From: Flavisolibacter ginsengisoli DSM 18119
GTDB taxonomy: Bacteria; Bacteroidota; Bacteroidia; Chitinophagales; Chitinophagaceae
Reading direction: 5' to 3'
NCBI RefSeq assembly: GCF_900129295.1
Contig: NZ_FQUU01000001.1
Span: 62,001-126,000 of the forward strand
Length of the DNA: 64,000 bases
A program made the position numbers and the translations under genes. Of this stretch, positions 3 to 37,917 are shown one piece after another; position 1 is the first letter of the stretch, and every line of letters begins with the position of its first letter. The notes beneath the pieces were generated by a model. The model was not told the origin of the DNA, made no database searches, and was given only the letters and a program-made list of their open reading frames with translations.

Positions 3-539
3 GATATACTGCTGAACATATTAAAAGAGATATATAGCAAGAAAATAGAAGCAAGTAAAATACGAATACATGGTAATCTTCACCTCCAGCAGATCTTATT
101 TACCGGGAAAGATATTGCAATACATGATTTTGGTGGTAACCCACATCGCAATTACAGTGAAAGAAGACTAAAGCGATCGGCATTCCGTGATGTAGCATCA
201 ATGATACGATCATTTTATTATGTTGCCCATAAGACCTTTCTTAATAGCAACCAGTTTGATAAAGATGAAATGAATGCATTACTGCCTTTTGCTACAATAT
301 GGTCACACTATATGAGCGGGTTCTTTTTAAAGGCATACCTGGAAAAAAGTAAGGGCAATAGCTTTATTCCTGAAAACAGGTCTGAACTTGAAATATTGAT
401 CAGGACCCAACTTTTAGAAGGAGCAATCAACGACCTTAATTTTGAATTAAACCATAGGCCTGAATATATTTTTATCCCATTAAAAATTATTGATGCGATA
501 GTTAACCCGGTGGAAACAAAAAAAATCCCCGTGGCTTAA
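3..539 (+). CDS. Trehalose synthase/maltokinase, C-terminal part (5' end outside window)
   Basis: The reading frame is open from the first bases of the window, so this is the last 178 residues of a longer protein. The stretch 'SERRLKRS..RDVASMIRSFYY' and the C-terminal 'YLEKSKGNSFIPE' block are typical of the aminoglycoside-phosphotransferase-like maltokinase domain (Mak/Pep2), which in many Bacteroidota is fused to trehalose synthase TreS. The family makes maltose-1-phosphate from maltose and ATP. The catalytic loop normally reads HGD; here it is HGN (Asn codon 75-77), and the usual DFE is DFG (126-134), so kinase activity is doubtful. Whether the missing N-terminal part is a TreS domain cannot be seen. 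The stop codon lies inside the hairpin of the oppositely oriented small RNA terminator. Confidence 0.8.
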   Translation, partial: DILLNILKEIYSKKIEASKIRIHGNLHLQQILFTGKDIAIHDFGGNPHRNYSERRLKRSAFRDVASMIRSFYYVAHKTFLNSNQFDKDEMNALLPFATIWSHYMSGFFLKAYLEKSKGNSFIPENRSELEILIRTQLLEGAINDLNFELNHRPEYIFIPLKIIDAIVNPVETKKIPVA

Positions 540-547
540 CACGGGGA
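518..547 (-). terminator. Intrinsic terminator of the minus-strand small RNA (copy A)
   Basis: Perfect 8-bp stem TCCCCGTG (526-533) / CACGGGGA (540-547) with a 6-nt loop. Read on the minus strand it is followed by eight U (518-525). It overlaps the last codons and stop of the maltokinase gene. The plus-strand side has no U tract, so it acts on minus-strand transcripts. Confidence 0.8.
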
Positions 548-794
548 CAAATATTGTCAGGCGATCAGTCTTGGCTGTTTGTATGGTTGATCATTATTGG
601 ACGCCTGGGTTCTCAAAGGTTCGGATAAGGATAGGATTGGATTTAAACGGTCTTCTAAGGATAATCAGAACATTGGTTATTCGAAAGGATAAGGAAAGAA
701 GTTGACTGATATTGGATTTAGTTTTGGTTTTTCAGGACTTGGATAGTTCGGTTTTCTGGACATTGGATGGATTGATATGTATCAATCAACTTCT
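518..794 (-). ncRNA. Putative A/C-rich small RNA, copy A of a two-copy family
   Basis: This 277-nt stretch has no convincing ORF and is very poor in C on the plus strand, so the minus-strand RNA would be A/C-rich and G-poor. It is homologous by eye, over its whole length, to 37410-37683 on the other strand, including 20 identical bases (697-716). A Bacteroidota-type promoter ends four bases before the predicted first base (794), and a hairpin plus U8 closes the other end. The predicted 5' end AGAAGUUGA (794-786) can pair with UCAACUUCU (705-697). A smaller hairpin GATTGATA/TATCAATC lies inside. Runs of AUCC and AACC recur. No known RNA family is recognised; it does not look like 6S RNA, because the 5' end pairs internally and not with the 3' end. 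Confidence 0.65.
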
Positions 795-798
795 GACA

Positions 799-829
799 CA
801 AAAATAGCTCAGCCTGCTATACAAGGCAA
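799..829 (-). promoter_or_regulatory. Promoter of small RNA copy A
   Basis: Minus strand: -33 TTG (829-827), 20-nt spacer, -7 TATTTTTG (806-799), a perfect match to the Bacteroidota TAnnTTTG consensus. The predicted start is at 794, four bases after the box, exactly as in copy B. Confidence 0.6.
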
Positions 830-37374: not shown

Positions 37375-37405
37375 TTGTCCCGCAATGTCGCTTGCTATAG
37401 TTTTG
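37375..37405 (+). promoter_or_regulatory. Promoter of small RNA copy B
   Basis: -33 TTG (37375-37377), 20-nt spacer, -7 TAGTTTTG (37398-37405), a perfect TAnnTTTG. Predicted start at 37410. Spacer length and distance to the start equal those of copy A. Confidence 0.6.
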
Positions 37406-37409
37406 TATC

Positions 37410-37683
37410 AGAAGTTGATTGGTAGTTAAGCATTATCAATCAGATCCAATTCCTGAAGAAAAACCAATAATCCAAACAATCCAACAGGAAAACCAAAAAC
37501 CAAAATCCAATATCAGTCAACTTCTTTTTTTTCCATTTCCTTTGAAAGACAAAAAGATCCATTAGCCCGGTTAAACCAATTCAATCCTATCCAAAACCAA
37601 CGGCATCCAATGATCCTTAACCATAGGAATCCGCCAAATTCGACTTTAATCATATTGATGCCCCTCAAAAAGGGGCATCTTTT
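37410..37683 (+). ncRNA. Putative A/C-rich small RNA, copy B
   Basis: About 274 nt between its own promoter and terminator, in opposite orientation to copy A and 36.6 kb away. Predicted 5' end AGAAGUUGA (37410-37418) pairs with UCAACUUCU (37517-37525); both arms are identical in copy A, while the enclosed sequence differs in length (98 versus 107 bases). The hairpin GATTG...CAATC next to the stem is present with a different loop. Downstream, shared blocks include CAATCCTATCC (37582-37592). G is rare until the terminator. No protein frame with coding character in the RNA direction; a 67-codon frame at 37610-37813 crosses the terminator and is not credible. Confidence 0.65.
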
Positions 37684-37684
37684 A
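37657..37684 (+). terminator. Terminator of small RNA copy B
   Basis: 9-bp perfect stem GATGCCCCT (37657-37665) / AGGGGCATC (37671-37679), loop CAAAA, then TTTT. No plus-strand protein gene lies upstream of it within 1.8 kb, so a terminator here only makes sense for a noncoding transcript. Confidence 0.75.
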
Positions 37685-37917
37685 TATGGCATTGCTTGCT
37701 GGCTTTATTGCATTGTTATCATCATAGTATCCATCATTTCATTAACAATTAGTCCTGCTTTACTAAAATATCCGTCAAATAGTATTGGAGCATTTAAGGT
37801 AATGGATAATTAAAAAACTGATTTTAAAATAATTATAATGTTGATTAGCATATTGGCTGCCGATAACAAAGATGGAAGCATTGCTACTGTACAAATTCAG
37901 TTGGTCATGCCATGCTT

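Follow-up and report, generated by a model that had tools for sequence, protein, structure and literature searches.

A predicted multicopy RNA family with RUCC and GAAAACC repeats in Flavisolibacter and other Chitinophagaceae

The minus strand beside the maltokinase gene at the start of the window (the whole 64,000-nucleotide stretch analysed) carries copy A of what is almost certainly a real, undescribed, multicopy RNA family, its transcript being predicted from sequence. The earlier note had read a complete minus-strand transcription unit here, and each element that it named was found in place: the TTG at 829-827, a 20-nt spacer to TATTTTTG, the predicted start with AGAAGTTGA from 794, the hairpin at 547-526 and the U8 tract (Table 1). 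The 5′ domain is closed by pairing as proposed, the closing stem (P1) having 15 bp in the fold instead of the first nine bases. The 3′ end does overlap the last maltokinase codons, with the ORF ending at 539, and the overlap is that of a terminator with the end of a convergent gene. No such overlap is seen at copies B, C35 and C18b. The maltokinase ORF matches the NCBIfam family TreS_Cterm ('putative maltokinase') at 2.2e-42, which is under the family cut-off because the window cuts the gene. Minimum free energy z-scores were -2.45 for copy A and -3.45 for copy B.

Table 1. Positions of the features of copies A and B in the window
Feature	Position	Strand	Description	Basis
Copy A RNA	518-794	minus	277 nt, from the predicted start (794) through the U tract	sequence, fold, paralogues in the same genome
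Copy A promoter	799-866	minus	upstream box 866-858, GGGCA 843-839, TTG 829-827, -7 box TATTTTTG 806-799	
Copy A 5′ domain	697-794	minus	closed by P1, 794-780 with 711-697	folds, P1 pairing in 176 copies
Copy A alternative local hairpin	787-781 with 776-770	minus		folds, local-hairpin counts
Copy A repeat modules (RUCC ... GAAAACC type)	618-761	minus	761-750, 744-726, 662-649, 632-618	counts against dinucleotide shuffles
Copy A second stem (P2)	558-607	minus	CAGGCG 607-602 with CGCCTG 563-558	alignment A5, pair counts
Copy A intrinsic terminator	518-547	minus	hairpin 547-526, U8 525-518	sequence, pair changes across 23 copies
Maltokinase gene, 3′ end	3-539	plus	truncated at the window edge, convergent with copy A	
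Copy B RNA	37410-37687	plus	P1 37410-37424 with 37511-37525, A/C-rich body, terminator hairpin 37657-37679	
Copy B -7 box TAGTTTTG	37398-37405	plus	TTG 37375-37377, upstream boxes not kept	

Copy A was used as a BLAST query against its own genome (4.68 Mb, 55 contigs). Copy B was returned at 3.4e-14 and five more loci at 8.4e-6 or better, which is more than expected by chance. A covariance model of the 5′ domain (R1) was built from these seven loci, copy A included; it recovers its seven source copies at E ≤ 1.8e-15, by construction, and the next match has E = 0.047. A promoter search of the same genome with up to three mismatches found nine places, and its reversed control found none. Six of the nine are known copies, one is an eighth copy (C22:83382), and two promoter-like places with three mismatches each, C6:98433 and C14:26910, show no family RNA. 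In C22:83382 a different short hairpin at the start replaces P1, leaving P1 in seven of the eight copies in this genome. This P1-less copy keeps the promoter, an AUCC/GAAAACC body, CCCGUUUUAAAUCC, the P2 stem and the terminator, and BLAST with it matched C6 over body and promoter, C17 over the body and, at a weaker level, C13 over the promoter. The boxes given for the copy A promoter rest on a logo over 89 copies and on the family promoter pattern, to which copy A has no mismatch; copy B has six and is absent from the nine places. The two copies of the earlier note are both real, and their number was too low, with at least eight paralogues in this genome, the majority of which have the same extended kind of promoter. 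Copy B repeats the parts of copy A in the same order for P1, body, terminator, TTG and TAGTTTTG, but not for the extended upstream boxes. The bodies diverge in alignment, as had been said, but the grammar of their repeated motifs is kept.

R1 searches at E ≤ 0.01 with strict filters matched 36 of 98 genomes. All 18 genomes of the genus have a match (17 of 17 without the source genome). So do 18 of the 41 genomes that represent other Chitinophagaceae genera; none was found in 39 genomes belonging to other families of the order. When 296 genomes were drawn evenly across the phylum, five matched, all in the same bacterial family. A strict P1 pattern containing both P1 strands occurs in at least 117 stretches of named genomes; many among the matches listed are Chitinophagaceae, and others are titled only as Bacteroidetes or at the level of the order. 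Genera among the matches listed include Flavisolibacter, Ferruginibacter, Terrimonas, Paraflavitalea, Pseudoflavitalea, Cnuella, Pinibacter and Flavihumibacter, all of which we take to belong to Chitinophagaceae. R1 matched 79 of 80 listed stretches on which it was run, and the pattern match in Bifidobacterium (locus L217) gave no R1 match. The copies anticipated in related genomes are therefore present, across the genus and in other Chitinophagaceae genera. The functional-RNA argument of the earlier note gains from these relatives' copies, from the paralogues and from the kept promoter and frequent terminators described below. Tandem copies, two or three per locus and often a few hundred bases apart, were seen in other genomes at L153, L160, L162, L172, L176, L180, L190, L201 and L208.

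Rfam searches gave no match bearing on the RNA in the window (gathering score) or in 12 loci (E ≤ 0.1), in agreement with the statement that it resembles no known RNA family. A match to HrrF at L021 (2772-2864) was discarded, as it lies outside the RNA and far under its gathering score. The minus strand of L130 (23-130) carries a Bacteroidales small SRP RNA above the gathering score. The top-ranked matches of a literature search contained no description of the RNA family and no small-RNA study of Chitinophagaceae.

For comparison of the copies, 184 were collected (90 places from the genome survey and 94 matches in named loci), of which 176 are distinct and were compared. The 90 survey places come from 101; the 10 weakest and one strong place (G017:C94) were left out, and one reverse-strand echo was dropped. 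R1 includes 12 nt of promoter together with P1, and the search models therefore raise the apparent frequency of the -7 box and of P1 pairing; TTG, GGGCA and the upstream box are not part of R1. A TAnnTTTR box could be placed in 89 of 90 copies, a figure that owes something to the presence of the -7 box in the search model. TTG stands 23 nt before this box in 83 of the 89, outside the model. The remaining upstream logo of the 89 copies, also outside the model, consists of GTAATTACC, AAAAT and GGGCA-N4-TGCTCTTG, the last of which forms a near dyad. PMC7366714 describes TAnnTTTG as the -7 element of Bacteroides. Homologous copies lacking both promoter and terminator would have spoken against the earlier note; the promoter is kept, and a terminator is frequent rather than general (70 of 176 copies).

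Between 95 and 100% of the 176 copies have standard pairs at the 12 central positions of P1, a count inflated by the search models. One P1 position is U.G in 111 of these copies, which fits an RNA on this strand. Covariation was judged by pair counts, which exceeded nearly all shuffles. In alignment A4 (94 copies) four pairs are changed on both sides. Alignment A5 has six such pairs, one in P1, one in P2 and four in the terminator; its 23 rows were hand-picked from the genus for a terminator and a GGCG-type P2, include copy B and the P1-less copy and omit terminated copies with another 3′ end, so its P2 figures are no survey. P2 is 81% paired in this hand-picked set, and RNAalifold on A5 predicted P1 and the terminator but not P2. 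Covariation thus lends moderate support to the predicted RNA structure, and the share of P1 in it is modest because most P1 pairs never vary.

The 5′ strand of P1 has a second potential partner. A local hairpin of at least 9 bp can form with this strand in 63 of 176 copies, and in 5 of 176 when the sequence downstream is shuffled. For the seven P1 copies in the source genome, the first 34 nt fold at -4.7 to -9.7 kcal/mol, compared to -11.1 to -12.6 kcal/mol for bare P1. A run of at least four T follows P1 in 154 of 176 copies. In the 330 nt that follow P1, 70 of 176 copies have a terminator-like site compared to 2 of 176 after shuffling, and 106 copies have no terminator within the stretch scanned; controls for terminators and hairpins were single-base shuffles, one per copy. 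The 23 terminated copies have predicted lengths of 253-348 nt (mean 296), calculated from sequence. The parts common to the family are the promoter, P1 in competition with the local hairpin, and a G-poor body, and the terminated copies of the genus add P2 and the terminator. Loci L025 (copy C17), L105, L122, L130 and L131 have a CCUCCUG...CAGGAGG-type hairpin followed by GGUGAUAG or a similar sequence, in some cases with no U tract.

The body is a motif array. Its loops contain 10.7% G. RUCC occurs 11.9 times per RNA (range 8-16) in the 23 terminated copies compared to 4.05 in dinucleotide shuffles, and neighbouring RUCC motifs are spaced 5-8 or about 16-30 nt apart. RUCC has a mean unpaired probability of 0.68; the corresponding values are 0.53 over all bases and 0.57 for RUCC of shuffled sequences. 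RUCC doublets are present in 22 of the 23 RNAs at 3.13 per RNA (0.23 in dinucleotide shuffles, about 13-fold), and RUCC-GAAAACC units in 20 of the 23 at 2.48 per RNA (0.14 in dinucleotide shuffles, about 18-fold). Across all 176 copies, 164 have a doublet and 136 a unit, about 11 and 15 times over shuffles. Among the six copies listed from the source genome, B and C35 have one unit each and C18b has none. A protein-coding RNA was rejected, as the longest ORFs have 37.7 aa compared to 34.0 aa in shuffles.

RUCC clusters were scanned in 129 kb of the source genome, comprising the window and the loci around copies, RRM genes, and promoter or model matches. Fifteen clusters were found. Eight hold modules, and seven of these eight are family copies. 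The seven non-family clusters include six that lie opposite an open frame of at least 100 codons. L277 (about 26959-26830 of C14, minus strand) is the module-bearing cluster that is not a family copy, and it lies opposite a long open frame. It has a family-like promoter with three mismatches, a short leader, two AAUCC motifs and an open frame at ATGTTCTGT. This leader is possibly part of an mRNA that has the same sites, judging from the sequence.

A longer loop stretch, ACCGUCCA, is found in 54 of 176 loops compared to 0.4 in shuffles. Such a stretch could be the pairing seed of a trans-acting RNA family like FopS of Bacteroides, in which one conserved, unpaired segment binds to translation starts, and targets are common to the paralogues or split among them. 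Multicopy paralogues, several with their own promoter and terminator, would suit this main rival reading, and RbpB, an RRM protein, binds such small RNAs in Bacteroides (PMC11697453). ACCGUCC is absent from copies A and B, however, and the conservation sits in many short repeats. Pairing of the body to 90 translation starts of mechanically called genes at loci of the source genome showed no general excess over shuffles (P = 0.60), although specific targets may exist. A base-pairing family is rated somewhat unlikely.

Neighbouring genes were assigned from motif matches within 2 kb of the 176 copies, with some loci shortened. The receiver, metal-receptor and CBS families were checked for the source genome, and the PFK and NarL neighbours, named by motif, are presumably of these families. 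Upstream of 44 of the 176 copies, and on their strand, is a cystathionine beta-synthase-like gene; a NarL-type response regulator is divergent in 30. Downstream are a periplasmic-binding-like metal receptor (31 of 176) or PFK (5 of 176). Copies C18b and C22 of the source genome follow ECF sigma genes. The recurrent upstream and divergent neighbours argue against a dispersed repeat or a mobile element of MITE type, whose terminal inverted repeats P1 would form. Dispersed copies, the tandem copies of several genomes and the inverted repeat itself would agree with such an element, but P1 encloses only the 5′ domain, and promoter, P2 and terminator are conserved outside it on both sides. The frequent U.G pair in P1 moreover preserves pairing in RNA and not in DNA, and the strict P1 pattern had no viral-contig match. 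A mobile element is accordingly considered extremely improbable. Carriage by phage was also rejected on the lack of viral-contig matches to this pattern, which would miss diverged copies.

In 9 of 176 copies the next gene is a receiver-only response regulator and no terminator was found in the interval, making these copies terminator-less leaders of one gene type. A same-strand gene also stands close behind some terminated copies, such as C6 and C22. These arrangements, together with the excess of local 5′-strand hairpins, could point to a purely cis-acting leader that works by a P1/local-hairpin switch or by terminator attenuation, the gene of the stand-alone copies being further on or lost. 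Copies A, B, C35 and C18b are next to a convergent gene, so they are not its leaders and would act in trans. The genes behind the element come from several unrelated families, and no Rfam riboswitch matched the window or the 12 loci. A purely cis role is a distinctly unlikely account of the family, more so than base pairing.

The reading preferred here, tentatively and short of an even chance, is a CsrB-like RNA that titrates a protein, perhaps of the RRM type. Through its array, each RNA would bind several copies of an RNA-binding protein with sequence specificity and so titrate it, as CsrB does CsrA. P1 and the competing local hairpin may be a scaffold or a switch, and the P1-less paralogue, in which modules, promoter, P2 and terminator are retained, is in favour of this titration reading. 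Where the element is the 5′ leader of a response regulator, or precedes a metal-receptor or PFK gene, it could place these mRNAs under the same protein. A broader proposal is a sponge-and-leader system of Hfq-less Bacteroidota, in which the array is directed to an expanded RRM set, mRNAs bear the same module and the partners of the 5′ strand switch between two forms; as a whole it is unlikely, ranking between base pairing and the cis leader.

RRM proteins would be the best candidates for titration, with nine matches in the source genome. RRM matches are present in 83 of 98 genomes. In the other genera of the family the median is 4 in 18 RNA-positive genomes compared to 1 in 23 RNA-negative genomes (P = 5.6e-5, or 2.6e-4 after genome size, both being statistics without correction for the tree). 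At least two RRM matches are found in 18 of 18 RNA-positive and 10 of 23 RNA-negative genomes. Five of the 23 RNA-negative genera have three or more: G023 (5), G029 (7), G031 (3), G032 (4) and G053 (3). The CSD family, used as a control, shows no such excess in RNA-positive genera (mean 1.06 compared to 1.83, P = 0.12). Hfq (PF17209) was over cut-off in 0 of 98 genomes, with one weak match below it (G020) and none in the source genome, and CsrA (PF02599) has no match in the source genome. RbpB of Bacteroides prefers GUAGGAUA and gave no binding of a UCC-containing probe in the data reported in PMC12119571. The RRM reading thus needs another specificity here, and this preference speaks against a simple transfer.

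The leaders of 89 genes at loci of the source genome are not RUCC-rich (0.45 per 120 nt), so they gave no sign of mRNAs targeted by such a protein. RRM genes were rejected as leader targets, since the array is missing upstream of 18 RRM genes inspected by eye, most of which show another leader. By eye, many RRM genes share a 5′ leader of their own, AATTTGAGCCTCGCATTAGTA ... TTAGTTAGTCTCTTACT ... CTCAGAT, within about 260 nt upstream (L296-L298, L300-L311 and L314). This leader is unrelated to the multicopy RNA and is possibly autoregulatory. A multicopy motif-array RNA in genomes with no recognisable Hfq, often with several RRM matches, offers a handle on post-transcriptional control in Chitinophagaceae. 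If the titration reading is true, it would allow a test of whether RRM proteins take on there the roles that CsrA and Hfq have elsewhere.

Four known systems resemble the new family in part. 6S RNA, reported in Bacteroides (PMC7366714), is likewise a structured non-coding RNA with its own promoter. Copies A and B differ from it in not folding as one long hairpin, the new family has at least eight copies in the source genome, and the 6S covariance model found no match in the window (gathering score) or the 12 loci (E ≤ 0.1). CrcZ-type RNAs of Pseudomonas are A-rich sponge RNAs that titrate Hfq. An A/C-rich, G-poor array is common to both, but AAYAAYAA is nearly absent from the new family (0.04 per RNA); CrcZ-like Hfq titration was rejected on this count and on the lack of Hfq over cut-off in the 98 genomes. 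CsrB/CsrC and RsmY/Z are sponge RNAs with repeated GGA motifs, and CsrB titrates CsrA. Like the new family, they are long RNAs in which a single short motif recurs many times; the motif is GGA there and RUCC/GAAAACC here. GGA occurs 1.9 times per RNA, or 0.78 times without the last 45 nt (23 copies), and a CsrA sponge was rejected because GGA is scarce and CsrA is absent from the source genome. The FopS and GibS small RNAs of Bacteroides, studied with RbpB in PMC11697453, are likewise multicopy paralogues in RRM-bearing genomes of Bacteroidota, and the same source states that a FopS structure was deposited in Rfam. The comparison with multicopy Bacteroides small RNAs made in the earlier note holds for paralogy but not for length and shape relative to FopS. 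FopS RNAs are about 65 and 70 nt long with a single-stranded 5′ stretch (PMC11697453), whereas 253-348 nt is predicted here. Unlike in FopS, the 5′ end is paired in P1 in copies A and B and the 176-copy set, and C22:83382 begins with another hairpin; the new family thus differs from FopS in a 5′ end held mostly in a 13-15 bp stem and in its repeated RUCC/GAAAACC modules.
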